Shown here one piece after another: positions 3,544 to 31,440 of a stretch of DNA of 37,626 nucleotides. Every line of letters starts with the position of its first letter. The first letter of the stretch is position 1. The notes under the pieces are model-generated. The model saw only the letters and a list, made by a program, of their open reading frames with translations. It did not search any database and had not been told where the DNA came from. Source of the stretch: an uncultured beta proteobacterium (GTDB lineage Bacteria > Pseudomonadota > Gammaproteobacteria > Burkholderiales > Rhodocyclaceae); contig CAJBYR010000055.1 in NCBI GenBank assembly GCA_903959855.1, forward strand, positions 1-37,626, written 5' to 3'. The position numbers and the translations under genes are program-made.

Positions 3544-4596
3544 ATGAGCAGGAAGAACCAGCCGCCGTGGACTCCGTCGCCGGAGTATGCGGCGCTGTTG
3601 CCTGAAATCTCCGGATGCAATTTCAACGGCTGGGGTGAAACCGAACCGCGCCGGCCACGCCAGATCTTCTGGCTGCGCAAAACCGACGGGCACCCCTTCG
3701 GCCGGCTGCTCGATGCCGTCAAGCAGCGCTTCTCCAGCGTCCAGGCCTACAACGATGTATACGCCTATGCCGACCGTGGGCCCGGCAAGCTGCCGGAGCC
3801 GGCGCCAAAACGCCGTGCGGCCAGCGCCGACTCCTGGACCCGCGAGGTCAAGGACTTCGTCCTCAATCACCCCGGCGCGCGGCCGGCCGGCTATCCCGGC
3901 GCCGGCAGCGAGGCCGAACTGGTCGGCGTCACCGCAATCCGTCCGGAATGGGTTTACGAGGGTTTCGAAAGTGGGCTGCCCAACCTGATCATGGTCGGCA
4001 ACGTCATGGACCACGCCCGCCTCTCGCGGGTACCCTCCAGCGCCGACGACCCGGAAGGCCAGCTCGAGGTCTGCGACCAGTACAACCGCGGCGCCCGCGT
4101 CGTGAATTGGCTCGCGCACTGGATCCGCAGCCAGGGCTACCAGGCCAAGCCGCATGCCGGCCCCTGGGTCGGTTCGCTCAATCTCCTGCCGGCGGCCATC
4201 GCCTGCGGCTTCGGCGAACTCGGCAAGCACGGCTCGCTGATCAATCGCGAGTACGGGTCGAGCTTCCGCCTGGCGGCCGTCGAGACCGACCTGCCGCTGA
4301 TTGCCGATGCGCCGGACAGCTTCGGCGCCGACGACTTCTGCAGCGGCTGCCAGGTCTGCGCCAACGACTGCCCGCCCGACGCCATCAGCCGCGAAAAACT
4401 GATGGTGCGCGGTAGCGTCAAATGGGCGGTGGATTTCGACCGCTGCATCCCCTACTTCAACGAAACCTTCGGCTGCGGCATCTGCATCGCCGTCTGCCCC
4501 TGGAGCACGCCCGGCCGCGCGCCGAAACTGGCCGAACGCTTCAGCCGCCGCGCCGGCGAACGCGCCGCTTCACGTGCCAGCGAGGCGACGGCATGA
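3544..4596 (+). CDS. reductive dehalogenase/QueG-like 4Fe-4S protein, no TAT signal
   Basis: GELGKHGSLINREYGSSFRLAAVETDLPL, CSGCQVCANDCP and FGCGICIAVCPWS cluster motifs. Confidence 0.75.
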   Translation: MSRKNQPPWTPSPEYAALLPEISGCNFNGWGETEPRRPRQIFWLRKTDGHPFGRLLDAVKQRFSSVQAYNDVYAYADRGPGKLPEPAPKRRAASADSWTREVKDFVLNHPGARPAGYPGAGSEAELVGVTAIRPEWVYEGFESGLPNLIMVGNVMDHARLSRVPSSADDPEGQLEVCDQYNRGARVVNWLAHWIRSQGYQAKPHAGPWVGSLNLLPAAIACGFGELGKHGSLINREYGSSFRLAAVETDLPLIADAPDSFGADDFCSGCQVCANDCPPDAISREKLMVRGSVKWAVDFDRCIPYFNETFGCGICIAVCPWSTPGRAPKLAERFSRRAGERAASRASEATA

Positions 4597-7700: not shown

Positions 7701-8245
7701 AAGTCGGCGCTGACGGTACGGCGCTCAGCGAAGCCGTCGCCCGCAATTACTTCAAGCTGCTGGCCTGCAAGGATGAATACGAAGTGGCGCGGCTGTTTGC
7801 CAGCCCCGCATTCGGCCATCAACTGGCCGCCAGTTTTGACGGCGAATACCGGCTCAATTTCTACATCACCCTGCCCTGGAACCGGGGCGTCAAGCCCGGT
7901 GACGAGCCGAAAAAGATCCGCTTCGGCCCCTGGCTGTTGCCGGCAATGAAGCTGATGGCCGGCTTGAAGTTTCTGCGTGGCACGGCCTTCAATCCCTTCG
8001 GCCGGATGCCCGAGCGGGTAAAGGAGCGCGAGCTGATTTCCGAATACGAAGCCACGGTCGGGCGCATCCTCGAACGTCTCGACCCCAGCAATCGCGACGC
8101 GGCCGTGGCGCTGGCGCGCGTGCCGGAAACGATACGCGGCTTCGGGCCGGTGAAGGAGCGCTCAATGGAGGCGGCGACGGCGAAGCGCGGGGAGTTTATG
8201 GCGGCGTTTGAGAGGATGGATACTCCAGCACCACTGGCCGGCTAG
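4751..8245 (+). CDS. indolepyruvate ferredoxin oxidoreductase family, fused alpha/beta-type protein
   Basis: Full-length fusion: TPP-binding region (GDGTYFHSGLLAIRAAVAAGVNITYKLLFNDAVAMTGGQP), ferredoxin-like CEGCGDCGIKSNC, C-terminal gamma-type domain GVGGTGVVTIGALLGMAAH; GGAGGAG RBS before ATG 4751. Confidence 0.92.
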   Translation: MSIANVSLDDKYRLQHGRVFLTGMQALARLPMLQHEFDRRAGLHTAGYVSGYRGSPLGGLDTALHAAEPYLQQYDISFHPGLNEDIAATAVWGTQQLHLFPKPRFDGIFSMWYGKGPGVDRSGDVFRHANHAGTSKHGGVLLIAGDDPSARSSAVAHQSEHIFSACGIPVLAPSNLQEYLDYGLHGWAMSRYSGCWVAMKLTSDTAESSATVDIAPERMEFVIPTDFELPPDGVHLRWPDPQLAQEHRLQQYKVYAAIAYARANRLNHLVFDSPRPRLGIIACGKAYVDVRQALDDLCIDERYAAEIGLRLFKVGMPWPLEADSVRHFAEGLEEILVVEEKRQIIEYQLKEMLYNWRDDVRPRVVGKYDETGEWPVPEHRWLLPPTAELTPTIVARAIAARIGRFHSSARISDCIARLDAKVQSLSRPRIAVMRTPYFCPGCPHNQSTKVPEGSCALGGVGCHLMAVMMGRNTITISHMGGEGAAWLGLAGHSGTQHVFANMGDGTYFHSGLLAIRAAVAAGVNITYKLLFNDAVAMTGGQPIDGTLTVPQLTRQLAAEDVKRIIVMSDEPEKYKTVSDFAPGVEIRHRDALEATQRELRETAGVTALIYDQTCAAEKRRRRKRGALGDPDLRIFINQAVCEGCGDCGIKSNCLAVVPVETEFGRKRMIDQHACNKDYSCLTGFCPSIVTVHGGKVRRGRALQNDAADFADLPEPPTVALPDPYGILIAGVGGTGVVTIGALLGMAAHLEGKGVTVLDMTGLAQKGGAVMSHVRLANRQSQLHSARIAAGEAKLLLGCDIVVTVSEEVLSKAATGCTHAVVNTGRTITGEFIRNPDQPFPDGAMEQSVADAVGTGAATFLDAGRLATKLMGHAMATNIFMLGFAFQRGLVPLSSAAILRAIVLNGTAVDDNTRTFHWGRRAALDPQGIDAMIADDEPADPAQRISENLDEIIERRRAFLVGYQDEAYARRYVELVAQVRQRELKVGADGTALSEAVARNYFKLLACKDEYEVARLFASPAFGHQLAASFDGEYRLNFYITLPWNRGVKPGDEPKKIRFGPWLLPAMKLMAGLKFLRGTAFNPFGRMPERVKERELISEYEATVGRILERLDPSNRDAAVALARVPETIRGFGPVKERSMEAATAKRGEFMAAFERMDTPAPLAG

Positions 8246-14259: not shown

Positions 14260-15849
14260 CTAGAAATTTGCCTGCTCGCCGTATTGACCGGCGGCTCTGT
14301 CCGCCGCGTATTCTTGTCTCAGCCTGGTCTTGAGAACCTTCCCCAGCGCGCTTCTTGGCAGCTCCGGAACTACTTCAAGCAAGCGTGGAATCTTGTACCC
14401 GCCTATGTGCTGGCGGCAATGGGTCACCAACTCCTCGATTGTGACCTGTACTCCGGGGCGACATACGACAACAGCGAGCAGAGCCTCCCCATATCGCTCA
14501 TCCGAAACTCCGATTACGGCGACCTCTGATACCTTTGGATGCAGTGCAAGTATTGCCTCGACTTCGACGGAGTAAACGTTCTCCCCTCCCGTGATGATCA
14601 TGTCCTTGCACCGATCGAGTATCGTGAGATACCCGTTTGCATCGAGCCGGCCCACGTCGCCGGTGCGAAACCATCCATCGACGAATGCCTGGGCGGTTTC
14701 GTCCGGCGCATTCAGATACCCCGGGGAGATATTCGGCCCGCGGGCCCGAATTTCACCGGAAGCGCCTGATGGAACATCGCGCCCATGCTGATCGGTAATC
14801 CGCAACTCAACGCCGGGAAGCGCCTGCCCGGCACTTCTGAGCCGCTCACAGGGATCGCCCACCAATGAACTGACATGATCCTTCATGGTCAGGACCGTCA
14901 GCAGCGGAGAGGTTTCCGTCAATCCATAACCCTGCGTCAGATCAACCCCGGGGAAGCGTTCAAGCAACTGCCGGATCGCGGGTGTGGGCATTGGCGACGA
15001 TCCATAGATCAGCTGTCGCAAGCTGGAACAGTCATGATCGCGAGCGCCCTCGGCAGCAAGGATCGCCATGACCATGGTCGGCGCCAGCATGGTCCTTGTA
15101 ACGCGACATTGTTCCACCGCGCGCATGAATTCATCCGGCGAAAACTGAGGAAGAAACGCATGCGACCCGCCCTGCAGGGTAACTCCGGTTCCCAGCAGGT
15201 CAGCCGAATGAAACATCGGGGCGACATGCAAAAAGATCTCGTCGGCGGAAAAGTGGAAACGCGAGGAGACCTGGAGCGCATTGCTGATGATGTTGCGATG
15301 CGTAAGCGGCACCCCTTTACTTTTTCCAGTGGTTCCGCCGGAGTAGAGGACAAGAGCCACATCGCTTTCATCCGGATCAATCGCATCCACCGGCTGCGCC
15401 GAGGCAAGAAGAGCCTGACAGGACTGCCCGGATGTCCCGGGAGTCTCGTCCAGGCTGAGTACCCGGCCCGCCCATCGAATCAGCGGCTCCGAGTTGAAGT
15501 GGGCCATGAAAGGCGACTCGACGCCAACCAGACTGCAATTGGCGTGTTCCAGAATGAAGGCGATTTCCGGCGCCGCCAGGCGAAAATTGATCGGCACCGG
15601 TATCGCGCCGATCCAGTATCCGGCGTGCATCAACTCGAAACAACGCGGACTATTGCGGGTCACCAGGCCAAAGGTCGAGCCGCGCGTGACGCCGAGTTCG
15701 AGAAGCATTGCGGCAGTACGCGCGATCCGGTCAATGAGTTCGGCCCAGGTCATGCGGCGGCCGTCATTGAAAATGGCGCTGCGATCTCCAGCTTGGGAGA
15801 GATTCCTTTTAAGGGCGCTTACCAAGGTCAGCATTTGCTTCCTCTCCAT
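14260..15849 (-). CDS. AMP-dependent synthetase/acyl-CoA ligase
   Basis: LVLYSGGTTGKSKGVPLTHRN, GWFRTGDVGRLDANGYLTILDR, LPRSALGKVLKTRLRQEY; start MERKQMLTL (15849) or MLTL (15834). Confidence 0.88.
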   Translation of the reverse strand: MERKQMLTLVSALKRNLSQAGDRSAIFNDGRRMTWAELIDRIARTAAMLLELGVTRGSTFGLVTRNSPRCFELMHAGYWIGAIPVPINFRLAAPEIAFILEHANCSLVGVESPFMAHFNSEPLIRWAGRVLSLDETPGTSGQSCQALLASAQPVDAIDPDESDVALVLYSGGTTGKSKGVPLTHRNIISNALQVSSRFHFSADEIFLHVAPMFHSADLLGTGVTLQGGSHAFLPQFSPDEFMRAVEQCRVTRTMLAPTMVMAILAAEGARDHDCSSLRQLIYGSSPMPTPAIRQLLERFPGVDLTQGYGLTETSPLLTVLTMKDHVSSLVGDPCERLRSAGQALPGVELRITDQHGRDVPSGASGEIRARGPNISPGYLNAPDETAQAFVDGWFRTGDVGRLDANGYLTILDRCKDMIITGGENVYSVEVEAILALHPKVSEVAVIGVSDERYGEALLAVVVCRPGVQVTIEELVTHCRQHIGGYKIPRLLEVVPELPRSALGKVLKTRLRQEYAADRAAGQYGEQANF

Positions 15850-16837
15850 CTTTCTGCGGCCTGGACCTGGCCCGAATACTCCATTTTTCCGCCAGACTTG
15901 ATGCCCGCCCCGGTTTGCTCCAAGGGCAGACGGCCAGGCAGATTGCGCAACCAAACGTCTCATTGAAGTATGGGATGCACTTTTCGAAATCGACCCACCA
16001 CTTCTCGACACCGCGCACCAATCCTTTTTCGTTATGGATCGCCCCGGGCGGGCAGGCGTCGGTGCAAACCTGACATCTGGTACAAAAGTCATCGGCACCA
16101 AAGTGATCAGGTTCGCTGGCTACAAGCGGCATATCGGTTTCCACCGCAGCCAAGCGAAACGACGACCCGTGAACGCGGTTGATCAGCGATCCATGCTTGC
16201 CCAGCTCCCCGAATCCCGCTGCAATGGCAGCTGGAACCAGCGAAAGTCCATGAACCCATGGACCCGCATGCATGCGCGCGCGAAACCCCCGCTCCAATAG
16301 CCAGTCGGCCGTTCGTGCGACAACGCGCGCTCCCCGGTTGTATTGGTTCGCCACCTCGACCTGGGCTATCGGATTCTCGAACGTCGAAGGCTGTTGCGAC
16401 AGCATTCCATAATCCATGGACAAGGAAAACACAATCACGAAGGGGAGGTCTGCCTCATGCCCTTCGTAGAACCACGCGCTGTCACTGCTGGCGATGCCGA
16501 CCTGGTCTGCTTCGTTGGCGAGAGCGAATTCCCGGACCAGCCGTGTCCATTCTGCGGCCGGCTTCTCCGCCTTGATCGGGGCGGGAGCGCTTCGCGGCTT
16601 TGGTCCGCGATCTGCCTTGGCAAAGACTTCGTACAGCGCAGGTACGCTGTTGTATCTAGCGACAACCGCGTCTTGAAGCCGGCCAAACGGGTGACCGGCA
16701 GTTTTTCTTAGCCAGAAGATCTGGCGCGCCTTTCGAACAACTGGCTCGCCAACGCCATTGAATTCGCTTCCGGAAATTTCCGGCAATAACGCGAAATGAT
16801 CAGTCGGCGGCAACCAGTACGCATTTTTTCGGGCCAT
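15809..16837 (-). CDS. reductive dehalogenase/QueG-like 4Fe-4S protein (paralogue of 3544-4596)
   Basis: MARKNAYWLPPTDHFALLPEISGSEFNGVGEP...RKARQIFWLRKTAGHPFGRL; CTRCQVCTDACPPGAI; FGCAICLAVCPWSKPG; start set by alignment to the paralogue. Confidence 0.75.
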   Translation of the reverse strand: MARKNAYWLPPTDHFALLPEISGSEFNGVGEPVVRKARQIFWLRKTAGHPFGRLQDAVVARYNSVPALYEVFAKADRGPKPRSAPAPIKAEKPAAEWTRLVREFALANEADQVGIASSDSAWFYEGHEADLPFVIVFSLSMDYGMLSQQPSTFENPIAQVEVANQYNRGARVVARTADWLLERGFRARMHAGPWVHGLSLVPAAIAAGFGELGKHGSLINRVHGSSFRLAAVETDMPLVASEPDHFGADDFCTRCQVCTDACPPGAIHNEKGLVRGVEKWWVDFEKCIPYFNETFGCAICLAVCPWSKPGRASSLAEKWSIRARSRPQKDGEEANADLGKRP

Positions 16838-17106
16838 AGCTTGGTTCCAGGCAGTAAGGCGATAGCCGGCATTCGTGCAGAGCGGGACGGTTCCCGGCGT
16901 GGACACGACACCTGACCTTGATGTCAATTTAATGATCGGCGCTGTTGTTTGCAATACACGCTGTCCGCTCTTGGGGGGACATCGCGACGGTCATTTTCGA
17001 TTCCCGTCATTGCACTGCACAACGGTTGCCTTCATGCTGTGCGGTGAGTCGTTGGATAATGTTGTCCAGCGTAGCCGACGGGTGATTTGTCAATCGGGGT
17101 GATTTT

Positions 17107-19328: not shown

Positions 19329-20252
19329 TCACTCGGGATAGCTCTCGAAGATCCCCTTGACCAGGTGCCTCAGCCAACTGTTGGCTTCATCGTGGTGAAA
19401 GCGTGGATGCCAGTGCTGCCTCAGCGCAAAACGCGGCAACTGCAGCGGCGTGTCGACAATCCGGATCGCCTTGTATTCCGAAAAAATGCGCCCCAATTCA
19501 CGCGGCACGGTGGCGATCAGGTCCATATTCTGGGCAATCAACAGCGGCACGGCAAGGAAGTGCGGCGTAGTGAGGAAGATGCGCCGCGCCCTGCCGTACT
19601 CGTCGATCACGCCATCGTAGTATTGATCGGCCTTTTCCGCGAGCGAAACGACGATGTGCTGCATCTCGAAAAACATGTCCTCGGTGAGCGTGGGCCCGAT
19701 ACGCAGATTGCGTCGATTGACGATGGTCACGAAGGGGTGGGTAAACAGTTGCTGCTGAAACAGACCCGGCGGAATGGCGTGCAGCGACCCGATTGCCAGA
19801 TCGACGTTTCCGGATTCAAGCGCCGCGAATATCTGTTTCGGCGGCAACTGCAGGGTCCGGATGCTGCAACCGGGCGCCTGCTCGCGCAGGGCATCAATCA
19901 GCGGCGGCAAAAACACCAGTTCGCCCATGTCGGTCATGCACAGACTGAAAACACGCTTTGCTTTTGCAGCATCGAAGCGCGTATTCACCAGCAGGTCACT
20001 GCGGATGGTTCCCATCACCGAGAGCACCGATGGGGCCAACGCTGATGCTCGCGGCGTCGGCTTCATTCCTTCGCCGGTCTTGACGAACAGCGGGTCGTCG
20101 AAAAAGCTGCGCAAGCGCTTCAAGGCATGGCTCATGGCGCTTTGCGACATTCCCAGTTCATCCGCCGCGCGCGACACGCTTTGCTCGCGTATCAAGGCAT
20201 CGAACACGGCAACAAGATTGAGATCCAGATCAGCTTTATGCAGAATTTTCAT
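19329..20252 (-). CDS. LysR-family transcriptional regulator
   Basis: DLDLNLVAVFDALIREQSVSRAADELGMSQSAMSHALKRLRSFFDDPLFVKTGEGMKPT. Confidence 0.92.
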   Translation of the reverse strand: MKILHKADLDLNLVAVFDALIREQSVSRAADELGMSQSAMSHALKRLRSFFDDPLFVKTGEGMKPTPRASALAPSVLSVMGTIRSDLLVNTRFDAAKAKRVFSLCMTDMGELVFLPPLIDALREQAPGCSIRTLQLPPKQIFAALESGNVDLAIGSLHAIPPGLFQQQLFTHPFVTIVNRRNLRIGPTLTEDMFFEMQHIVVSLAEKADQYYDGVIDEYGRARRIFLTTPHFLAVPLLIAQNMDLIATVPRELGRIFSEYKAIRIVDTPLQLPRFALRQHWHPRFHHDEANSWLRHLVKGIFESYPE

Positions 20253-20355: not shown

Positions 20356-21393
20356 ATGTTCATCAAGAACTGCTGGTATGTGGCCGCCTGGGACACCGAG
20401 GTCCCGGCCGACGGATTCCTGACGCGGACCATCACCGGTGTGCCGGTCGTACTTTGGCGTGACTCCACCGGCAAAATAGTTGCTTTCGAGGACCGCTGCT
20501 GCCACCGTGGCGCGCCCTTGTCGAAAGGTCGCCGCGAAGGCGATTGCCTGCGCTGCATGTACCATGGCCTGAAGTTCGACCGCAGCGGCACCTGCGTTGA
20601 AATCCCCTCGCAAAAGACTATCCCGCCGCAAGCCAGGGTGCGCAGCTTCCCTGTCGTCGAAACCCATCGCTGGGTCTGGATCTGGATGGGCGACGCCGCA
20701 GCGGCCGACACGGCCCTGGTTCCGGATACCCACTGGCTCAACGATCCCGCCTGGCGCAGCAACGACGGCTACATTCACTACGATGTCGGCTACCTTCTGA
20801 TCGCCGACAACCTGCTCGATTTTTCGCACTTGCCTTACGTCCATCCGACGACGCTCGGCGGCAGCGAAGACTATGCCAAGGTGGTACCGAAGGTGGAACG
20901 CACAGCGCGCGGGGTCAAGGTCACCCGCTGGACAATCGATACCGAAGCGCCGGGTTTCATCCAGAAAGTGCGCCCGTTCGCCGGCCGCGTCGACCGCTGG
21001 AACATCTACGACTTCGTCATGCCTGGGGTACTGCTGATGGATTCCGGGATGGCGCTCACCGGTACCGGCGCACCGGACGGAAATCGCATCGACGCCGCCG
21101 AATTCCGCGGCTGCCAGGCGCTGACACCGGAAACCGAAAACTCCACCCACTACTTCTTCGCCCATCCACACAACTTCCTGATCGACCGCCCGGATGTCAC
21201 GACATCAATCCATCAGAGCGTAGTCACCGCGTTCGCCGAAGATCGCGAAATGATCATGGCCCAGCAAACATCGCTGTCGCAGGACGGCGGATTCAAGATG
21301 GTCAATCTCGGCATCGATTCGGCGCTCACGCAGTTCCGCTGGATGGTAAGCCGCCAGATCGAGGAAGAAAGCAAGCATGCCGCAGCCGCCTGA
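20356..21393 (+). CDS. Rieske non-heme iron oxygenase, vanillate O-demethylase oxygenase (VanA)-like
   Basis: CCHRGAPLSKGRREGDCLRCMYHG Rieske motif; NCWYVAAWDTEV start; D..HLPYVHPTTLG. Confidence 0.9.
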   Translation: MFIKNCWYVAAWDTEVPADGFLTRTITGVPVVLWRDSTGKIVAFEDRCCHRGAPLSKGRREGDCLRCMYHGLKFDRSGTCVEIPSQKTIPPQARVRSFPVVETHRWVWIWMGDAAAADTALVPDTHWLNDPAWRSNDGYIHYDVGYLLIADNLLDFSHLPYVHPTTLGGSEDYAKVVPKVERTARGVKVTRWTIDTEAPGFIQKVRPFAGRVDRWNIYDFVMPGVLLMDSGMALTGTGAPDGNRIDAAEFRGCQALTPETENSTHYFFAHPHNFLIDRPDVTTSIHQSVVTAFAEDREMIMAQQTSLSQDGGFKMVNLGIDSALTQFRWMVSRQIEEESKHAAAA

Positions 21394-22339
21394 CACCCTC
21401 AACCTGAGGGTTGCCGCGCGCCGGGCCATTGCCGATGAGGTCGTCGAGTTGGAGTTGCGGTCGATCGACAACGCGCAACTGCCTGGCTTTGAACCCGGCG
21501 CGCACATCGACGTCCATCTCGCGAACGGCATGGTGCGCCAGTATTCACTCGCCAACTATCAGCCTGCCCCCGACAGCTACACTATCGCCGTCGGCCTCGC
21601 AGTCGCCTCGCGCGGCGGATCGAAACACATCCACGAGTCAATTGCGGTTGGCGACCTTCTGCCGGTCAGCTTGCCGCGCAACAGTTTCCCACTCGATCCG
21701 GCTGCGGCAGGCTATGTCTTCATCGCTGGCGGCATCGGCATCACGCCCATCATGAGCATGGTCCGCTGGTGCGAAATGTCGCGCACGCCCTGGCGCCTGC
21801 TTTACAGTGCCAGAAGCCGGCAACGCGCTGCCTACGCCGAGCAACTGGCCGCGCTCGGCGGCGAGCGCGTCCATCTGCATTTCGATGACATTACCGGCAG
21901 CTTTGCCGACCTCGACAACTACCTCGCCAAATTGCGCGCCGAAGACCAGGTCTATTGCTGCGGTCCCGAACCATTGATGCAGGCCGTCGGCCGGGCTGCG
22001 GCACACCATCCGGCCAGTCATGTTCGCTTCGAGCACTTCAGCGTTGTACCCACCGATGCGCCGTCACTGAATCACGCCTTCACGGTGCGTTTGACGCAGA
22101 GCGCACGCGACCTTCCGGTTCCAGCCGACATCAGCATCCTTGATGCCCTAGATCTGGCCGGCATCGCACATCCCTTCGGCTGCCGGGAGGGGCTATGCCG
22201 AAGCTGCGAAGCCGAGGTCTGCGGTGGCATTCCCGACCATCGCGATTTCGTGCTATCGGACGAAGAACGCGCAGCCAACCGCAGCATCATGGTTTGCGTA
22301 TCACGGTCGAAGTCCGACTGCCTGGAACTGAAACTCTAG
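21377..22339 (+). CDS. PDR/VanB-type ferredoxin-flavin oxidoreductase
   Basis: RQYSLANYQPAPDSYTIAVGL, AGGIGITPIMSM, C-terminal 2Fe-2S CREGLCRSCEAEV; 17-nt overlap with oxygenase gene. Confidence 0.9.
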   Translation: MPQPPDTLNLRVAARRAIADEVVELELRSIDNAQLPGFEPGAHIDVHLANGMVRQYSLANYQPAPDSYTIAVGLAVASRGGSKHIHESIAVGDLLPVSLPRNSFPLDPAAAGYVFIAGGIGITPIMSMVRWCEMSRTPWRLLYSARSRQRAAYAEQLAALGGERVHLHFDDITGSFADLDNYLAKLRAEDQVYCCGPEPLMQAVGRAAAHHPASHVRFEHFSVVPTDAPSLNHAFTVRLTQSARDLPVPADISILDALDLAGIAHPFGCREGLCRSCEAEVCGGIPDHRDFVLSDEERAANRSIMVCVSRSKSDCLELKL

Positions 22340-22348
22340 GGTCTAGCC

Positions 22349-23764
22349 GTGTTGGCCCTCCGCTACTGGTCGGTGCGCCACGCCCGGGGACTGGCCCGCG
22401 CTTACGACTTTCTGGCATCACTTGCACCGTGGCTTGCCCCACTGGCCAGAATCATCGGAATAGCCAGGGTGGAAGCCGCGTTGCGCCCCGTCGAGCGCCT
22501 CGCAAAAACGACCTTGTTCGATTGCCGCATGTGCGGCCAGTGCGTGCTTTCAGCGACCGGAATGGCCTGCCCGATGAATTGCGCCAAGGAAATGCGCAAT
22601 GGCCCCTGTGGCGGCGTAAGGCCGGACGGCAGTTGCGAAGTCCACCCCTCTCTGCGCTGTACCTGGACTGAAGCCGTCGCCGGCGCCAACAGGATCGCCG
22701 CCGATCGCGGAGCCCGCCCGACACCATTGCTGCCGGCGATCGACCAGCGCCGACATGGCGCCTCGACTTGGATTCAGGTACTTCAGGGCCGCCCCGACCC
22801 GGCGTTCCAGCCAGCCGTCGGCGAGCGAGTGACGCGCGCAACCGGGCAAGGAGGGCTTGAGCAAGCCTGCAACTCCGGTCGTCTGGTCGTCACTGTTGAA
22901 GTTGCACCACCGGATTCGGCGCGTCCCGAACCCCTGCTGCGGCGAGCCCGGCTGTTTGAAGGCCTGGTCGACGCCATCAATATTACCGACGGCGCCGGCG
23001 GCAACTGCCACATGTCCAGCGTCGCCGCCTCGGCCATTCTGGCCGAACATGGCCACACGCCGGTCTATCAGATCGCCTGCCGTGATCGCAATCGGATTGC
23101 CATCCAGGGGGACATCCTTGGTGCCGCTGCGCTCGGCGTCAGGAACATACTGTGCCTGACCGGTGACGATGTCAGCCAGGGTGACCATCCCGAGGCCAAG
23201 CCCGTGTTCGACCTGGATGCGGTTTCGCTGCTCCACATCACCCGTGGCATGTGTGATCGAGGGGAGTTTGCCTCCGGTCGCAAGTTGCAGGAGGCCCCCG
23301 ACCTGTTCATCGGCGCAACGACGAATCCCTTTGTGCCGCCGTTTTCCGATCGCATCGCGAATCTGGAAAACAAGGTGCTGGCCGGAGCGCGCTTCATCCA
23401 GACGCAGTTCTGCTTCGACCTCAAGCGCTTTGAAGCCTTCATGCACCAAGTGCGACAGCGCGGACTCGACCGCCGCGCCCATATCATCGTCGGTGTCGGA
23501 ACCCTGAATTCGGCAAGGGCCTTGCGCTGGATGGCCGAGAACGTTCCTGGCGTATATATCCCGCCGGAGGTGCTGGCCAGAGTCGAATCCGCATCCGACC
23601 AGGCGCGCGAGGCACGCCTGGTATGCGGCGAAATAATGCGAGCCGTCACCAGGATCCCCGGGGTCGCCGGCATTCACCTCATGGGCCACCGCAACGAGGA
23701 GGTACTCGCCGAAATCATTGACGAGCACGACTTGCGTCGGCAGCCGCGTTTGTATACCGTCTGA
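22349..23764 (+). CDS. methylenetetrahydrofolate reductase with MetV-type cysteine-rich N-terminal domain (MetV-MetF fusion)
   Basis: CRMCGQCVLSATGMACPMNCAKEMRNGPCGGVRPDGSCEV followed by MTHFR-like barrel (DAINITDGAGG, ARFIQTQFCFDLKRFEAFM); GTG start. Confidence 0.85.
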   Translation: MLALRYWSVRHARGLARAYDFLASLAPWLAPLARIIGIARVEAALRPVERLAKTTLFDCRMCGQCVLSATGMACPMNCAKEMRNGPCGGVRPDGSCEVHPSLRCTWTEAVAGANRIAADRGARPTPLLPAIDQRRHGASTWIQVLQGRPDPAFQPAVGERVTRATGQGGLEQACNSGRLVVTVEVAPPDSARPEPLLRRARLFEGLVDAINITDGAGGNCHMSSVAASAILAEHGHTPVYQIACRDRNRIAIQGDILGAAALGVRNILCLTGDDVSQGDHPEAKPVFDLDAVSLLHITRGMCDRGEFASGRKLQEAPDLFIGATTNPFVPPFSDRIANLENKVLAGARFIQTQFCFDLKRFEAFMHQVRQRGLDRRAHIIVGVGTLNSARALRWMAENVPGVYIPPEVLARVESASDQAREARLVCGEIMRAVTRIPGVAGIHLMGHRNEEVLAEIIDEHDLRRQPRLYTV

Positions 23765-23785
23765 CTATCACAACAAGGGAGGAAC

Positions 23786-24451
23786 ATGATGAGCGACATG
23801 ACCGACAAAGAGCGGCAGTTGGTGGAGTGGCTGTCCGACATGAACGAGGACGATGCCCTGGACCTGGCCAAGAAGATGCTGCTGGAAGAAGGCGTCTCGC
23901 CGCTGCGCGTTCTGGAACTCTGCCGCAACGCCATGGACATCGTCGGCAAGCGCTTCGAGGAAGGCGAGTATTTCCTCCCTGAACTGGTGCTGGCCGGTGA
24001 GATGCTGGAAACCATCGGCGCCATCGCCAAGCCCCTGATCACGCATGCGCCCGGCGAGGAGCCAAAGAAGCTCGGCAAGGTGCTGATCGGCACGGTCCAT
24101 GGCGACCTGCACGACATCGGCAAGAACATCGTCAGCTTCATGCTCGACATCAACGGCTTCGACGTCAAGGATATCGGGATCGATGTGCCGGTGAAGACCT
24201 TCATCGAGGAGATCCGCGCCTACGAACCCGATGTGGTCGGGCTGTCGGGCTTCCTGACCCTGGCCTTCGACTCGATGAAGGAAACCATCGCGGCCTTCGA
24301 GAAGGAAGGGATGCGCCAGCAGTTCAAGGTGATGATCGGTGGCGGGCAGATCGACGAGACGGTGCGCGCCTATACCGGCGCCGATGCCTTCGGCATCAAC
24401 GCGGTGGAGGCGGTGAACCTGTGCCGCAGCTGGACGGAGAAGGCCGCATGA
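23786..24451 (+). CDS. methyltransferase cognate corrinoid protein (B12-binding)
   Basis: GTVHGDLHDIGKNIVSFMLDINGFDV (DxHxxG), VVGLSGFLTLAF, IGGGQI; GGGAGGAAC RBS. Confidence 0.93.
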   Translation: MMSDMTDKERQLVEWLSDMNEDDALDLAKKMLLEEGVSPLRVLELCRNAMDIVGKRFEEGEYFLPELVLAGEMLETIGAIAKPLITHAPGEEPKKLGKVLIGTVHGDLHDIGKNIVSFMLDINGFDVKDIGIDVPVKTFIEEIRAYEPDVVGLSGFLTLAFDSMKETIAAFEKEGMRQQFKVMIGGGQIDETVRAYTGADAFGINAVEAVNLCRSWTEKAA

Positions 24452-25713
24452 ATACCGCCACCCAACCCGCCACCGACGCCAAGGCCGCCTACGACGCACG
24501 CTGGAAGCGCATCCTCGATTGCGTCGCCCTGAAACAGGCGGATCGCATGCCGGTGATCATGTATGCCACGTACTGGCTGGCGCGCTACGGCGGCATCAGC
24601 AACAAGGAGCTGATGTACAACTATGAGAAGACGGCCGAGATATCCGAACGCGCCGTGCTTGAATTCGAACCCGATGCCTGTATTTCGCTGGTCGGCGCCA
24701 ATGCCCTGGGGCGGGTGTTCGAGGCCACCGATTACAAGCAACTGAAGTGGCCGGGACACGGTGTCGGTGACGACCAGCCCTACCAGTATCTCGACCGTGA
24801 GTACATGAAGGCCGACGAGCTCGGCGAACTGGTACGCGACCCCACCGCCTTCTACCTCAACAAGTATCTGCCGCGGATCTTCGGCGCCTTTGAAGGCTTC
24901 GAGCACTTTCCGGCACTTCCGGGCATGTTCTATTTCCGTGCCATCACCGGCCTGCGCCCCTTCGCCAATCCCGACTTGCGCAAGGCACTGCGACGCGTGC
25001 TCGATGCCGCTGACGAAGTCGAGATCTACATGAACCACGCCGGACAGTGGAACCGCCGCATTGCCTCGCTCGGCTTTCCACTGATCAATGGCAGTGCATC
25101 CGGTGCACCCTATGACGTGCTTGCAGACTATTTCCGCGGTGCGACAGGAATGATGAAGGACCTGTTCCGCCACAAAGAGCAGTTGCTCGAAGCCATCGAC
25201 ATGATGCGGCGCAATCTGGTGCGCATGACCATTGCCAATGCCAAGGCATCGGGCAACCCCATCGTCTTCATCCCCATCCACTGGGCGCCGGACGCCTTCA
25301 TGTCGCCCAAGCAGTTCGAGACCTTCTGGTGGCCGAGCTTCCGCCAGATGATGGTCGAACTGATCGAGGCCGATTTGATCCCCATGCCGCTATGGGAATC
25401 TGACTGCACCAAGCGCCTGGAGATCATCAAGGACGTGCCTGCCGGAAAATGCATTTACTGGTTCGAACGTACCGACATTGTCAAAGCCTACGAGGTTCTT
25501 GGCGACCGGGTGGCATTGCGCGGCAACCTCTCGCCCTCGATGATGACCACCGGCACACCGGCTGACGTCGATGCCGCGGTCAAGCGGCTGGTCGACGAAA
25601 TCTGGAACAAGGGTGGCAGCCTGATGCTGGATACAGCCTTTGGCATTCCCGACGAAACCCCGGTTGAAAACGTTCGCGCAATGTTCGATTCGGCGCGCAA
25701 GTACGCCGGCTGA
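24448..25713 (+). CDS. uroporphyrinogen decarboxylase-family (MtaA/CmuA-like) methyltransferase
   Basis: UroD-like fold motifs (RGNLSPSMMTTGTPADVDAAVKRLVDEIWNKGGSLMLDTAFGIPDETPVENVRAMFDSARKY); ATGA overlap with corrinoid protein gene. Confidence 0.85.
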   Translation: MNTATQPATDAKAAYDARWKRILDCVALKQADRMPVIMYATYWLARYGGISNKELMYNYEKTAEISERAVLEFEPDACISLVGANALGRVFEATDYKQLKWPGHGVGDDQPYQYLDREYMKADELGELVRDPTAFYLNKYLPRIFGAFEGFEHFPALPGMFYFRAITGLRPFANPDLRKALRRVLDAADEVEIYMNHAGQWNRRIASLGFPLINGSASGAPYDVLADYFRGATGMMKDLFRHKEQLLEAIDMMRRNLVRMTIANAKASGNPIVFIPIHWAPDAFMSPKQFETFWWPSFRQMMVELIEADLIPMPLWESDCTKRLEIIKDVPAGKCIYWFERTDIVKAYEVLGDRVALRGNLSPSMMTTGTPADVDAAVKRLVDEIWNKGGSLMLDTAFGIPDETPVENVRAMFDSARKYAG

Positions 25714-25718
25714 GCACC

Positions 25719-26399
25719 ATGCGCGCTTCTCGCGGCTTCGATGTCCTGCGCGAGGTGGCGGATGCACCGCCGCGCGTGCGCCGTTCGCCGGTCGGCGAGC
25801 GACAGCGACTGAAGGCGCTGGACCTGCTGCGTCGCGAACGGCTTGTCGAAACCGCTTACTGCTATTGCATTGTTCCGCTCGATGCCCCGCCTGCAGCGGT
25901 GCTTCATGCTGCTGGAGAAAGCCTCGAAGCCCCCTGGCTGCTTCCGGAATCGGGCGAACTGACCGCCATTGCCTGTGCCGTTTGCACCATCGGCACGGCC
26001 TACGAACACCGCGTAAGCCAACTCTTCGCGGAACGTCAGGCCTCGCTGGCAATGGCCCTCAACGACCTGGGTAACGAACTGCTGTTTGCGGTATCGCGCC
26101 GCGCGCAGGATCGAATTCAGGCAGACGTGAATCGACGCGGACTGTCGATGGCCGGCGAACTGCGTCCGGGCGACCCCGGGCTGGCAATCGAGGCGCAGGG
26201 CCCCGTATTGCGATTGGCCTGCGCTGACACCATCGGCATCACGCTGGGGCCGGGCGGGCTGATGAATCCCGTCAAGTCGTGCTCCATGGTGCTCGGCGTC
26301 GGCATCGGCCTGCCCGCCGTCAAATGGTCGCGCTGCGACCATTGCCCGACACGACACAAATGCCGGGTTGTCGAGCCAGCGGCAGGGGCTGCCGCGTAG
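25719..26399 (+). CDS. protein resembling the vitamin B12-dependent methionine synthase activation domain
   Basis: TAIACAVCTIGTAYEHRVSQLFAERQASLAMALNDLGNELLFAVSRRAQDRI...GPGGLMNPVKSCSMVLGVGIG; C-terminal CDHCPTRHKC. Confidence 0.65.
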   Translation: MRASRGFDVLREVADAPPRVRRSPVGERQRLKALDLLRRERLVETAYCYCIVPLDAPPAAVLHAAGESLEAPWLLPESGELTAIACAVCTIGTAYEHRVSQLFAERQASLAMALNDLGNELLFAVSRRAQDRIQADVNRRGLSMAGELRPGDPGLAIEAQGPVLRLACADTIGITLGPGGLMNPVKSCSMVLGVGIGLPAVKWSRCDHCPTRHKCRVVEPAAGAAA

Positions 26400-26405
26400 C
26401 CGCCC

Positions 26406-28268
26406 ATGAATGCGCCCACCACACGCACTCACCGCCTGCGCTTTCCCGAACTGGGTCGGGAGATCGACGCCAACAGCGACGAGACCATTTTTCATGCCGC
26501 ACGTCGCAACGGCCTGCGCATTGTCGGCGCCTGTGGCGGTCGGGGTACCTGCGGCACCTGTGTCGTACGCGTCACCGAAGGGCGTATCGACCATGTGCAT
26601 TCCGCACCGCCGGAACGGCTCGAAACCAACGTACCAACATCTGATACGGGCGCGCCGCATGGCCGGCGCAAGTGGCTGCGCGCCTGCCAGCTGCGTGTCC
26701 GCAGTGATTGTGTCGTCGAGGTCGCCCCTCGCTCGCTCGCCCCAGTTGTCCGCGCCGATATTGATATGGCCGATTCCGGCATCGATGATGCCCTCGATCC
26801 GGCCGTCAGCGTCTGCGATCTCAGCCTGCCAGCCGCCACGCTCGCCGACCCGCTGAGCGACGCGGATCGAGTTGCGCGGGCCTTGCGCCTGCCCGCGGTG
26901 GCGATCGATCTTGGCGCCGCCCGGGCCCTTCCCGGCGCCTTGCGCGACAGCGAGGAAAACGACACCTGGACGGTGCGCGTACATCTGCGCGGCAACGAGG
27001 TGATTCGCTTCTCCGCGCCGGGTAGCCGGACCCTTGGCCTGGCTGTCGATCTCGGTACCACCAATGTCGCCGCCTTCCTGCTTGATCTCGAAACCGGCCA
27101 GCGCATCGCCGGCCTCGGCATAGAGAACCCCCAGACCGCCTGGGGTGCCGACCTGATCAGCCGGATCAACCATGCCATTCGCAGCCCGCAGGCGCTGGGC
27201 GAGTTACGCACGGCAGCCGTCGCCGCGATCAATGGCCTGGCCCATGACCTTTGCCGCGACCTCGGCGCCGGCACACAGGACATTGTCGATGCCGCGATTT
27301 GCGGCAACACCGCAATGCATCATCTGCTGCTTGGCCTGCCTGTGCGCCAGCTTGGCCGCGCGCCCTTCGTTGCTGCAAGCCTAAAGGCCATGGACCTGAA
27401 GGCGCGTGATCTCGGCTTGGCTTTCTGTCCGGGCGCCGGAGTTCACCTGGCGCCGAGCGTCGGCGGCTTTGTTGGCGGCGACCACGTCACCGCCCTGCTC
27501 GCCACCGAGGAACGCTGGCGCACGGGTGGTACCAGCCTGGTGATGGATATCGGCACCAATACCGAAATCTCGCTGATACATCAGGGGCGCATCGTGTCGG
27601 CCTCCTGCCCCTCCGGCCCGGCCCTGGAAGGGGGCCACATTTCCTGCGGCATGCGCGCCGCCGACGGGGCCATCGAGCGGGTTGGCGTGAATGGCAGGCG
27701 CCTGTCGATACGCACCATCGGTGGTGAAGACGCCGTCGGCCTTTGCGGGTCCGGCGTGCTTGACACCCTTTCCGCCATGCGTCGCCTCGACATCCTCAGC
27801 GCACGCGGCCGTATCGCCGAAGGGTATGAGGATGTCGTCGACCACGAAGGTGTCAGAGCCGTCCGACTGGCCCCGGGAGTGCACTTTTCTCAGCACGATG
27901 TGCGCGCCGTACAACTGGCCAAAGCGGCGATCCGTGCCGGCACCGAAATGTTGCTGCGCGAGCAAGGCATCACCGAGCAACAAATCCAGCGCTTCATCGT
28001 CGCCGGGGCCTTTGGCGCCTATATCGATATTGCCAGCGGCATCGACATCGGGCTTTTTCCCGACCTGCCCGTTACACGTTTCGAACAGGTAGGTAATGCC
28101 GCCGGTCTTGGAGTACGGCGCCTGCTGACAAGTCTCGCGGCCCGCCGCCGCGCCACCGAAATCGCGGCTGCCTGCAAATACATCGAGCTATCGACGCGCA
28201 GCGACTTCCAGCAATGCTTCCTCCACCACATCGCCTTTCCAGACCCTATTCCGAGGAGACCCGCGTGA
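26406..28268 (+). CDS. RACE protein (reductive activator of corrinoid enzymes): 2Fe-2S ferredoxin domain plus DUF4445/ASKHA domain
   Basis: CGGRGTCGTCVVRV, LGLAVDLGTTNVAAFLLDLETG, VMDIGTNTEISLI, RFIVAGAFGAYIDI. Confidence 0.9.
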   Translation: MNAPTTRTHRLRFPELGREIDANSDETIFHAARRNGLRIVGACGGRGTCGTCVVRVTEGRIDHVHSAPPERLETNVPTSDTGAPHGRRKWLRACQLRVRSDCVVEVAPRSLAPVVRADIDMADSGIDDALDPAVSVCDLSLPAATLADPLSDADRVARALRLPAVAIDLGAARALPGALRDSEENDTWTVRVHLRGNEVIRFSAPGSRTLGLAVDLGTTNVAAFLLDLETGQRIAGLGIENPQTAWGADLISRINHAIRSPQALGELRTAAVAAINGLAHDLCRDLGAGTQDIVDAAICGNTAMHHLLLGLPVRQLGRAPFVAASLKAMDLKARDLGLAFCPGAGVHLAPSVGGFVGGDHVTALLATEERWRTGGTSLVMDIGTNTEISLIHQGRIVSASCPSGPALEGGHISCGMRAADGAIERVGVNGRRLSIRTIGGEDAVGLCGSGVLDTLSAMRRLDILSARGRIAEGYEDVVDHEGVRAVRLAPGVHFSQHDVRAVQLAKAAIRAGTEMLLREQGITEQQIQRFIVAGAFGAYIDIASGIDIGLFPDLPVTRFEQVGNAAGLGVRRLLTSLAARRRATEIAAACKYIELSTRSDFQQCFLHHIAFPDPIPRRPA

Positions 28269-29152
28269 CCGCATCCCCCGACTTCGCCATCCGCATCATC
28301 GGCGAACGTATCAATCCCGGCTTCAAGAGCACCCGCGGCCTGTTCGACAATGAAGACATACCAGGCATTCAGGCACTGGCGGTGAAACAGGCAGAGGCTG
28401 GCGCGAGCTTCCAGAACGTCAACATCGGCGCCCGCGCCATGACCGATCCCGAGTTCATGACGAAAATCATCACGGCGATTCAGGATGTCGTGAGTACGCC
28501 GCTTTCCTTCGACTTTCCGAGCAAGAAGGTGCAGGAGATCTGCCTCTCCGCCTACCGGCCGGAGCGGGCCGATGGTGCCCTGCCGATCGTCAATTCGATC
28601 ACCGAGCATCGCTGGGACCTCATGGAACTCTACGGCCGCTTCCGCTTCAAGGTCATCCTCATGGCATCGGAACGCATGGAAGACGGTATCGCCAGGGGCA
28701 ACAAAACGGCCGACCAGATCTACGGCACGGCACGCCGGGCCACGTTGCGCCTGCAGAACGACTACGGGATGCCGCTCGACGACATATTCATCGACATGTC
28801 GGTATCGGCCATCATCGCCGACACGGTGGGCCTCAATCGGGCGACCATCGATGCCATCAAACTGATCGGCGCCGACCCGGAGCTCAAGGGCGTGCACATG
28901 ATGGGCGGCCTCTCCAACATCGGCCAGCAATTGCCACCCAAGGCCGCCGACGGCTCCGACCTCAAGCACTGCCTGGAAAATGCCTTCCTCACCCTCAGCG
29001 TGCCACATGGCTTCGACACCGTGCTCGGTACGCCGTGGCGCGGCTACGCCCCGTTGCCCGAAGACCACTATGTGCTGAAGACGTATCGCAATTTCCTAGA
29101 GCAATCGGGCACAAATGCCCTGCGCGCCGTGCGCAAGTTCTACAAAGCCTGA
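28265..29152 (+). CDS. methyltetrahydrofolate:corrinoid methyltransferase-like (pterin-binding/DHPS fold, MeTr)
   Basis: IIGERINPGFKSTRGLF, FQNVNIGAR, LPIVNSITEHRWD, VHMMGGLSNIGQQLP; GTG start overlapping preceding stop. Confidence 0.85.
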   Translation: MTASPDFAIRIIGERINPGFKSTRGLFDNEDIPGIQALAVKQAEAGASFQNVNIGARAMTDPEFMTKIITAIQDVVSTPLSFDFPSKKVQEICLSAYRPERADGALPIVNSITEHRWDLMELYGRFRFKVILMASERMEDGIARGNKTADQIYGTARRATLRLQNDYGMPLDDIFIDMSVSAIIADTVGLNRATIDAIKLIGADPELKGVHMMGGLSNIGQQLPPKAADGSDLKHCLENAFLTLSVPHGFDTVLGTPWRGYAPLPEDHYVLKTYRNFLEQSGTNALRAVRKFYKA

Positions 29153-29155
29153 ACC

Positions 29156-30361
29156 ATGGCACCCCTGCAAGACATGGCAGTGGTGGTCGATGAGTGGTTC
29201 GACGGCGAACGCCGTCACCGCGAGGCCACGACATTTCTGATCCGCGAGGGTCGCATTGCCGAAATAGCCCCTGGCGATCGCTCCGCCAGCCTGGTGATCC
29301 CCGGCACACCCATTGAGCGCGGTGGCTTTCTGATGCCTGGCCTGGTGGATGCCCACGTGCACCTCTTTCTCGATGGCAAACCCACCGATACCGCCACCCG
29401 CTCGGCGCACCTGAAGCAATCTGTCGAGGATCTGACCGACGCAGCACGCGCCAGCGCACGCCAGTCAATGGCCTGTGGCATCACCCTGGTCCGCGATGCG
29501 GGCGACCGCTACGGCATCAACAACCGCATACGCGACGAAAGCCGCAGCGGTGCCGCCGGTCTTTGCCATGTGCGCTCGGGCGGATTGGGCGTGAAGCGCC
29601 CCAAGCGCTATGGCGCCTTCATGGCGCGAGACGTGACAGACGAAGCCGCGATCCGCGAGTCTGTGGCGGAACTGGCGAAATCGAGCGACGAAATCAAACT
29701 CATCCTCACCGGCATCATCGATTTCGACGCCGGCGCTGTCACGGATGAACCACAGTTCGAACTGGCGGACACCCGACTGGTGGTTGAAACAGCGCGGGCC
29801 CACGGACGGACGACCTTCGCCCATTGCAGCGGGATCAAGGGATTGCGGATTGCCGCGCAAGCCGGTGTTGGCTCCATTGAACATGGCTTCTTCATGGACC
29901 GCGAAACGCTGGCGGTCATGCGCGACAAGCAGATCGCCTGGACGCCGACATTCTGTCCGGTACATTTCCAGTGGGCGCATCCCGAGGCGGCCGGCTGGTC
30001 ACCCAACACCATCGGCAACCTGCGTCGCATCCTCGACTCACACGCCGAACATCTGCGTCTGGCCGACGAAATGGGGGCACCGCTCCTGCTCGGCACCGAC
30101 GCGGGCAGCATGGGCGTGGAACATGGCCATGCCCTGTTTGACGAAATCGATCGCTACCTTGAGGCCGGTATCGCATTGGAACGCGTCATCGCCGCTGCCA
30201 GTTCCGTTCCACGAAAGCACTTCGGACATTCCAATGCCCTGCTGACCCGGGGCAGCCCGTTTGATGCGGTGCTGCTGCCGGTATCCCCCTTCGGCGATCC
30301 ACAAGCCCTGCGCAAACCCAGCCGAGTCTGGAAGAGAGCGACCGTTCACGCGGCGACCTGA
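29156..30361 (+). CDS. amidohydrolase family protein
   Basis: GGFLMPGLVDAHVHLFLDG, HGRTTFAHCSGIKGLRIAAQAGVGSIEHGFFMD, PLLLGTDAGSMGVEHGHALFDEI. Confidence 0.9.
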   Translation: MAPLQDMAVVVDEWFDGERRHREATTFLIREGRIAEIAPGDRSASLVIPGTPIERGGFLMPGLVDAHVHLFLDGKPTDTATRSAHLKQSVEDLTDAARASARQSMACGITLVRDAGDRYGINNRIRDESRSGAAGLCHVRSGGLGVKRPKRYGAFMARDVTDEAAIRESVAELAKSSDEIKLILTGIIDFDAGAVTDEPQFELADTRLVVETARAHGRTTFAHCSGIKGLRIAAQAGVGSIEHGFFMDRETLAVMRDKQIAWTPTFCPVHFQWAHPEAAGWSPNTIGNLRRILDSHAEHLRLADEMGAPLLLGTDAGSMGVEHGHALFDEIDRYLEAGIALERVIAAASSVPRKHFGHSNALLTRGSPFDAVLLPVSPFGDPQALRKPSRVWKRATVHAAT

Positions 30362-30438: not shown

Positions 30439-31440
30439 ATGACCCCCAGCCAGATCGTCAAGTTTCTCGACCAGCATGTGGTCGGCCAGGAAGAAGCCAA
30501 ACGCCAGTTGGCCGTCGCCGTCTATACCCACTACCGCAAGATCGCGCTGGCGGCGCCGGAAAAGCTCGATATCATCAAGAGCAACGTGCTGCTGATCGGC
30601 CCCACCGGCACCGGCAAGACGCTGTTGTGCGAAACCCTGTCGCGCGTCCTCGGCGTGCCCTTCGTCACCGCCAACGCCACCTCGCTGGCGCAAAGCGAAT
30701 ACGTCAATGACGAGATCGTCGCCATCCTCGAGCGCCTGATCGACAAGGCTGAGGGCGACGTCGGCCGTGCCCAGCGCGGCATCGTCTTCATCGACGAGAT
30801 CGACAAGCTCAAGGTAAACGAGACGCAGCAGATGCAACTGCGCGGCACCTCGGGCGAGGGCGTGCAGCATGCCCTGCTGAAGATCATGGAAGGCGCGCCG
30901 GTCAAGCTCAAGGAAACAGCCTACATCGACACCACCGAGATCCTCTTCATCTGCGGCGGCGCCTTTGTCGGCATCGAGAGCATTCTTGCGCGCACCCATT
31001 CCTTCGGCTTCATTTCGACCTCGGAGGACGACAACCAGAAGCTGCTCGACCGCCTCAACGCCCGCATCAAGCCCACCGACTTGTTCGAATACGGGCTGAT
31101 CCAGGAATTCGCCGGGCGCCTGCCCGTGGTGGCTTCGCTGCTGCCGCTGTCGCGCGAGATGATGGTGCGCATCATGACCGAGCCGAAGAACTCGATCTAC
31201 GAGCAATACCGCCAGATTCTCCGGGACTCGGGCGTCGATCTGCTGATCGAGCCGCTGGTGTTCGAGCAGATCGCCGATCTGGCGATGGAATACAAGGTCG
31301 GCGCGCGCAGCCTGCGCGGCATCTTCGAGGAAATGCTGACGCCGGTGATCTACCTGGTACCCGACCATCCCGAGGTGAAACAGGTGCGCATCACCTCGCT
31401 GTTCGAAAACCCCCGCTACATCGGCCAGAAATCGGCGTAA
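30439..31440 (+). CDS. ClpX-like AAA+ ATPase without the N-terminal zinc-binding domain
   Basis: Starts at LDQHVVGQEEAKRQLAVAVYTHYRK; Walker A GPTGTGKT, Walker B GIVFIDEIDK, SGEGVQHALLKIMEG, ILFICGGAF, EFAGRLPVVASLLPLS, GARSLRGI. Confidence 0.9.
   Translation: MTPSQIVKFLDQHVVGQEEAKRQLAVAVYTHYRKIALAAPEKLDIIKSNVLLIGPTGTGKTLLCETLSRVLGVPFVTANATSLAQSEYVNDEIVAILERLIDKAEGDVGRAQRGIVFIDEIDKLKVNETQQMQLRGTSGEGVQHALLKIMEGAPVKLKETAYIDTTEILFICGGAFVGIESILARTHSFGFISTSEDDNQKLLDRLNARIKPTDLFEYGLIQEFAGRLPVVASLLPLSREMMVRIMTEPKNSIYEQYRQILRDSGVDLLIEPLVFEQIADLAMEYKVGARSLRGIFEEMLTPVIYLVPDHPEVKQVRITSLFENPRYIGQKSA

Follow-up and report, generated by a model that had tools for sequence, protein, structure and literature searches.

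Strict anaerobes (acetogens and methanogens) are known to O-demethylate with corrinoid systems, and aerobes with Rieske oxygenases. Here, we describe a nine-gene operon that carries both demethylase types in an uncultured beta proteobacterium of the Rhodocyclaceae, most likely a Sulfuritalea bacterium. The window analysed is the whole of contig C55 (CAJBYR010000055.1; 37,626 bases), from an assembly of 4.26 Mb in 347 contigs that is 99.5% complete. The chemistry of each half is already known; here both stand in one proteobacterial operon, an arrangement that recurs in several lineages. In the open-access literature, a scope outside which most subscription journals lie, no paper on a Rieske/corrinoid pairing was found, nor were assigned corrinoid genes for anaerobic methoxyaromatic demethylation in facultative Proteobacteria. 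The operon probably encodes two parallel O-demethylation routes for a single methoxylated aromatic acid, vanillate or a closely similar methoxybenzoate being the likeliest candidate.

The O-demethylases of acetogens and methanogens (Mtv, Odm, Vdm and Mto) combine a UroD-type methyltransferase I (MT1), a small corrinoid protein, a methyltransferase II (MT2) and an activator of the RACE type, and in Mtv/Mto-type systems the methyl group ends on a reduced pterin (PMC8630106). The oxidative enzyme VanAB consists of a VanA_C oxygenase and a VanB-type reductase, and the vanARB genes of Rhodopseudomonas palustris have a vanA-GntR-vanB make-up (PMC6974649). The genes of the window operon, preceded by a divergent regulator gene, are as follows (THF, tetrahydrofolate).

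19329..20252, - strand: LysR regulator, divergent, probable regulator of the operon; a LysR gene stands next to and divergent from the Rieske gene in Paraburkholderia hospita (L092) too, and at the other Sulfuritalea loci
20356..21393, + strand: Rieske non-heme iron oxygenase, VanA_C family (PF00355 and PF19112), predicted oxidative demethylase arm
21377..22339, + strand: VanB-type reductase with NAD-binding and C-terminal 2Fe-2S domains; 17-nt overlap with the Rieske gene
22349..23764, + strand: MetV-MetF fusion (MetVF), methylene-THF reductase, PF12225/DUF5981 (41-116) and PF02219 (170-459); opens the conserved core
23786..24451, + strand: corrinoid (methyl carrier) protein, PF02607 and PF02310, with DLHDIG; best PDB match 4jgi, E 7.7e-48
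24448..25713, + strand: UroD-superfamily MT1 (substrate:corrinoid), PF01208; best PDB match CdmB 9rui, E 4e-31, residues 12-417
25719..26399, + strand: protein of the MetH activation-domain fold with a WSRCDxC...C tail (AlphaFold2 and Foldseek), putative accessory of corrinoid reactivation
26406..28268, + strand: RACE, ATP-dependent reductive activator of corrinoid proteins (RACo/AcsV-like), PF14574, PF17651, PF17650 and Fer2
28265..29152, + strand: MeTr-type MT2 (methyl-corrinoid:THF), PF00809 pterin-binding; its GTG start overlaps the RACE stop
29156..30361, + strand: amidohydrolase, PF01979, with HxH; closes the conserved core

An earlier note, made from the sequence alone, had described nine compact genes on one strand. 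All nine are present on the + strand (20356-30361), and neighbouring genes either overlap or lie no more than 21 nucleotides (nt) apart: in gene order, -17, +9, +21, -4 (ATGA), +5, +6, -4 (GTGA) and +3 nt. The family calls made there agree with Pfam and NCBIfam, the sixth protein being recognised by fold and not by family. To these genes we add the LysR gene, which lies 103 nt upstream of the operon and belongs to the Rieske unit. Every motif checked was intact: CxH...CxxH and D-x2-H-x4-H in the Rieske protein, C-x4-C-x2-C in the reductase, DxHxxG in the corrinoid protein (DLHDIG, beginning at residue 107), C-x5-C-x2-C in RACE and HxH in the amidohydrolase. RACE scored 358 bits against the AcsV-like model NF040756, under that model's cut-off, and MeTr matched NF005719 (methylTHF:corrinoid/FeS protein methyltransferase domain) at 5.6e-29. 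Neither Rfam nor tRNA scanning found anything in the window, and promoter and terminator counts were near the shuffled expectation, which is evidence neither way.

Like the acetogen-type O-demethylases, the operon holds a DxHxxG corrinoid protein together with a MeTr-type MT2 and RACE in the same cluster. It differs from them in its proteobacterial host, the lack of carbon monoxide dehydrogenase/acetyl-CoA synthase (CODH/ACS) and formyl-THF synthetase (FTHFS), the pairing with an O2-dependent oxygenase, and the inclusion of a fused MetVF, a MetH-activation-fold protein and an amidohydrolase. The Mto and Mtv systems (PMC8630106) are the closest functional models, and the corrinoid arm is a putative methoxyaromatic demethylase with THF as acceptor. 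The upstream pair is of the VanAB type, with Rieske and VanA_C domains, intact metal motifs and a VanB-type reductase; the best PDB matches of the Rieske protein are dicamba O-demethylase DdmC (3gb4, 1.4e-50) and the Rieske protein 7qwt (1.2e-49). Unlike vanARB, it has a divergent LysR gene and is followed by a corrinoid/THF module, and its oxygenase is only ~38% identical to the vanillate-type VanA of relatives. No GntR regulator (VanR) accompanies the window pair, and we therefore refer to the enzyme as VanA-family and not as VanA.

CmuA, of the MtaA/CmuA family, is an MT1 fused to a corrinoid domain. In the window, MT1 and the corrinoid protein are separate genes, and MT1 scored 42.7 bits against TIGR01463 (cut-off 235.4); membership of the chloromethane Cmu systems, to which the module had been likened, was rejected and the comparison is a loose one. 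LigM and DesA of Sphingobium are THF-dependent O-demethylases that transfer the methyl group of vanillate or syringate to THF in a proteobacterium with lig genes, as proposed here, but they are single GcvT-like proteins without corrinoid, and none such occurs in this operon. Membership of the Wood-Ljungdahl pathway was likewise rejected, as CODH/ACS (CdhC) and FTHFS had no match in the genome. The chloromethane system CdmBCA of Acetobacterium dehalogenans shares the MT1/corrinoid protein/MT2 layout, and CdmB is the closest solved relative of the window MT1; it differs in having three genes without Rieske or MetVF and in its acetogen host. CdmB, a haloalkane demethylase, is kin to the O-demethylases MtoB, OdmB, VdmB and MtvB (PMC13222342). 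Because the identity of the window MT1 to CdmB is low, haloalkane specificity is not transferable to it. A zinc motif of O-demethylase MT1 proteins, E-x14-E-x20-H, was absent in this exact form from all MT1s tested, which is not decisive; CdmB shows no zinc either (PMC13222342).

The Rieske pair adjoins the corrinoid genes non-randomly. The single VanA_C Rieske of the 4.26-Mb genome is located in this operon. With MT1 as query, genome_contigs yielded 34 loci, and a family search added further regions. A VanA_C Rieske lies inside the fetched flanks of 9 of the 34, compared to 0.13 expected under random placement, a baseline that is too low and flatters the linkage because catabolic genes cluster. 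Overall, 31 MT1-bearing genomes contain 37 VanA_C matches, and 8 of these genomes have none. Even when just four or five separate lineages are counted, the probability is still 1e-5 to 3e-7. Moreover, in a tree of 39 Rieske proteins the label 'linked' changes 9 times, at least 7 of these changes being forced by well-supported branches. One row labelled 'unlinked' (L107) comes from a fourth Sulfuritalea genome; LysR, Rieske and an incomplete reductase gene lie together on its short contig L119, so that this Rieske is almost certainly linked. Chance adjacency, which the earlier note had put forward as the finding that would undo its proposal, was therefore rejected on the sole genomic VanA_C, the locus counts and the repeated changes of label.

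The linked VanA-type Rieskes come from four or five lineages. They comprise the LysR-associated type of Sulfuritalea; vanARB in Alphaproteobacteria (L015, L034, L036) and Rhodocyclaceae (L083, L084), together with the VanAB pair of Azospirillum (L017); a third type, at L070 and L085; and those of L008 and of L014/L020. In the MT1 tree, the vanARB label arises at least twice. The pairing has thus arisen independently in other bacteria, which suggests that it allows its hosts to use lignin-derived aromatic compounds whether or not O2 is present.

The seven-gene core (MetVF, corrinoid protein, MT1, activation-fold protein, RACE, MeTr and amidohydrolase) keeps its order and strand in most sufficiently long loci, from Rhodocyclaceae and other Betaproteobacteria including Burkholderiales to Alphaproteobacteria and one Terriglobia metagenome-assembled genome (MAG), and the regions from the family search show the same layout. 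The amidohydrolase is the final core gene in most loci whose contig extends that far. A search for the same gene order in other genomes, as proposed earlier, found this order kept in two other Sulfuritalea MAGs (L005, L006) and in pieces on two contigs of a fourth genome (L004/L119). In the Aromatoleum-type layout (L021, L076, L079, L080), MT1 stands apart from the core and divergent; it occurs without an adjoining core at L014, L020, L073 and L081, and two adjacent MT1s are found at L033. Such solitary and paired MT1 loci can be likened to acetogens, which have several MT1s per genome. The module is patchy, being present in 2 of 398 genomes of the order sample, 21 of 398 of the family sample and 4 of 399 of the family of G403 (MT1 E <= 1e-60). 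A plasmid search with MT1 gave remote Sporomusa and Acetoanaerobium matches and nothing else. A Burkholderiaceae MAG (L008:9088-21205) carries a tandem pair of nearly complete corrinoid modules, whose MT1s are 78% and 64% identical to that of the window.

The sixth protein (25719..26399) had no Pfam or NCBIfam match. Its AlphaFold2 model (mean predicted local distance difference test score 89.6) was used for a Foldseek search, in which ranks 1-19 were all MetH fragments or methionine-synthase activation domains, with 1j6r as the best (E 8.3e-10). Among 22 aligned relatives, GEL...GDPG and WSRC..C.....C are invariant. The model thus indicates the fold of the S-adenosylmethionine (SAM, AdoMet)-binding activation domain of methionine synthase, in agreement with the label 'B12-activation-like' given earlier, and the protein is a putative AdoMet binder only. 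The module probably holds two reactivation proteins, RACE and this MetH-activation-like one.

The gene context of relatives bears on the substrate. In L083, L084, L015, L034 and L036, vanA, a GntR-FCD regulator gene and vanB precede MetVF and the remaining core. LigA/LigB and LigC adjoin L083 and L084, with the LigA equivalog cut-off reached in both; PobA (equivalog) occurs in the surroundings of L083, where the larger region L133 also contains a homologue of hydroxycinnamoyl-CoA hydratase/lyase. In Azospirillum TSO22-1 (L017), LigAB stands immediately before MetVF, and VanA-VanB follow the amidohydrolase. Protocatechuate 4,5-dioxygenase genes thus lie alongside the module in two Rhodocyclaceae and one Azospirillum. 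Azospirillum B510 has an unlinked VanA that shares 77% identity with the L084 protein and adjoins p-hydroxycinnamoyl-CoA hydratase/lyase and synthetase genes. Given the vanARB make-up and the lig and hydroxycinnamoyl-CoA neighbourhoods, vanillate or a similar compound is the most likely substrate of the module in these relatives, and protocatechuate the product. The case is a step weaker for the window, given the ~38% identity of its Rieske to that VanA. Among the closest outside relatives of the window Rieske is that of P. hospita (L092), where a divergent LysR (55%) and Rieske (67%) like those of the window have FrmA and FghA equivalogs near by, as expected for a demethylase that releases formaldehyde; the gene context of two unlinked relatives, L117 and L118, shows no clear substrate. 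The host genome encodes PobA, two LigAB pairs and LigK, all on contig C185. Thus, where the earlier note held that the substrate cannot be read from sequence, its class has been narrowed by the relatives, while for the exact substrate of the window that statement stands.

The recurrent independent VanA-type linkage, the vanARB/lig neighbourhoods of relatives and the formaldehyde-oxidation gene pair beside the close LysR-Rieske relative support the proposal, made in the earlier note, of one substrate and two routes. We infer a shared substrate with an O2-dependent division of labour. In the oxic arm, electrons would pass from NAD(P)H through the reductase to the Rieske oxygenase, which would hydroxylate the methyl group with O2 to give formaldehyde and the phenol. 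In the anoxic or microoxic arm, MT1 would transfer the methyl group to Co(I) of the corrinoid protein, and MeTr would pass it on to THF; the catabolic gene context points to this direction, demethylation with THF as acceptor. Since CdhC/ACS and FTHFS are absent, MetVF presumably oxidises methyl-THF to methylene-THF, which would enter the one-carbon (C1) pool without acetogenesis and presumably be used or oxidised by general C1 enzymes. Should the cofactor be oxidised by accident, RACE, probably aided by the MetH-activation-fold protein, would reduce cob(II) back to cob(I). The catechol-type product would be passed to protocatechuate 4,5-cleavage by the lig pathway, whose genes lie on another contig.

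Parallel routes to one product fit better than sequential ones, because core and Rieske units each occur without the other: of the 31 genomes, 8 have the core but lack any VanA_C Rieske, the isolate Aromatoleum anaerobium among them, and relatives of the Rieske units are found in genomes that lack the core. It is accordingly unlikely that the Rieske precedes the corrinoid system, which would then remove a second methyl group, from a substrate with two methyl groups (such as syringate or veratrate) or one that must be oxygenated beforehand, even though both halves stand in the same operon and the ring opening by LigAB-type enzymes can extend to methoxylated gallates; the earlier suggestion of oxygenation followed by methyl transfer is thereby weakened. 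The halves might instead act on different substrates, joined under one regulator since both supply C1 units (formaldehyde, methyl-THF) to one pool. The linked Rieskes are indeed diverse across several lineages, and there is no one-to-one correspondence between the subtypes of MT1 and those of the Rieske. However, the partners are demethylase-like VanA_C oxygenases, repeatedly placed immediately before MetVF, both halves share the lig context in L017, L083 and L084, and the window Rieske type and close MT1 relatives co-occur unlinked in two genomes (L109, L110), so that we regard this as quite improbable.

Methyl flow in the opposite direction, from methyl-THF made by MetVF through MeTr, the corrinoid protein and MT1 to a substrate, with the Rieske acting in later degradation, appears very unlikely. 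In principle, MetVF and MeTr could also run in this direction, AdoMet might be a ligand of the MetH-activation-fold protein, and denitrifying Denitratisoma begins estrogen degradation by cobalamin-dependent methylation (PMC7448270). The emtABCD cluster of that denitrifying betaproteobacterium also has a corrinoid protein and a RACE-like activator near by, but it methylates rather than demethylates, through an MtmB-like EmtA with SAM as donor and SAM-regeneration genes in the vicinity (PMC7448270). The window MT1 is a UroD protein, and neither Emt-type nor SAM-regeneration genes were seen in the operon, so that an emt-type estrogen methyltransferase, the alternative named in the earlier note, was rejected. 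Moreover, the relatives lie in vanARB/lig catabolic clusters, where methylation makes little sense.

Several points weigh against two routes for a vanillate-like substrate. Given the ~38% identity and the LysR in place of GntR, the substrate of the window Rieske may differ from that of the relatives. No lig or ferulate genes were identified in the window, the lig cluster being on a different contig. Benzoyl-CoA reductase BcrB is below cut-off in the host genome and above it in five relatives; the anoxic fate of the aromatic ring therefore differs between hosts of the module. The link of MT1 to OdmB, VdmB, MtvB and MtoB runs through CdmB, its best match, which acts on haloalkanes and not on methoxyaromatics. 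The amidohydrolase is without a place in the proposed scheme, the random-placement expectation of 0.13 flatters the linkage, and most core-bearing genomes have no Rieske near by, which makes the linkage a recurring option and not a rule.

The two arms could also form one functional unit in which the VanB-type reductase or the Rieske protein feeds the reactivation of corrinoid Co(I), an idea that we consider a long shot. If true, it would allow a facultative host to keep its O2-sensitive corrinoid demethylase working while conditions change between oxic and anoxic, and could bear on the need for vanAB in anaerobic syringate use by R. palustris (PMC6974649). The window also encodes a single-chain indolepyruvate-ferredoxin-oxidoreductase (IOR)-like protein (4751-8245, +; POR and DUF6537), of which a 47% identical relative stands directly before MetVF in L010; it might give RACE low-potential electrons. 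There (L010:2759-9289), same-strand AMP-binding synthetase and IOR-like genes lead into MetVF in place of the Rieske pair.

Among the other genes of the window, a ClpX-like AAA+ ATPase without the N-terminal zinc domain (30439-31440, +) begins 77 nt after the amidohydrolase gene and has an 85% identical counterpart at the same position in Sulfuritalea L006. Two related 4Fe-4S proteins (3544-4596, +, and 15809-16954, -; 350 and 381 amino acids as called) are each encoded near a branched-chain-type ABC substrate-binding protein gene; by eye they resemble reductive-dehalogenase-like proteins, but Pfam gives Fer4 domains only. The end of a molybdopterin-binding large subunit of the xanthine-dehydrogenase type (95-1099, +) adjoins a class III CoA-transferase gene (1140-2294). 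Elsewhere in the genome, L131 (G000:C184) holds a cluster of a benzoyl-CoA reductase/2-hydroxyacyl-CoA-dehydratase-like protein, a small amidohydrolase, an enoyl-CoA hydratase and an acyl-CoA synthetase. An amidohydrolase resembling the one in this cluster adjoins the L084 module and is also found near the VanA-type Rieske of L122.

For facultative Proteobacteria, the operon identifies candidate genes by which methoxyaromatics may be demethylated anaerobically, and it offers a testable idea of how lignin-derived compounds may be used across the oxic-anoxic boundary. In addition, the corrinoid route would retain the methyl group as methyl-THF and avoid toxic formaldehyde, which could be useful for lignin conversion.

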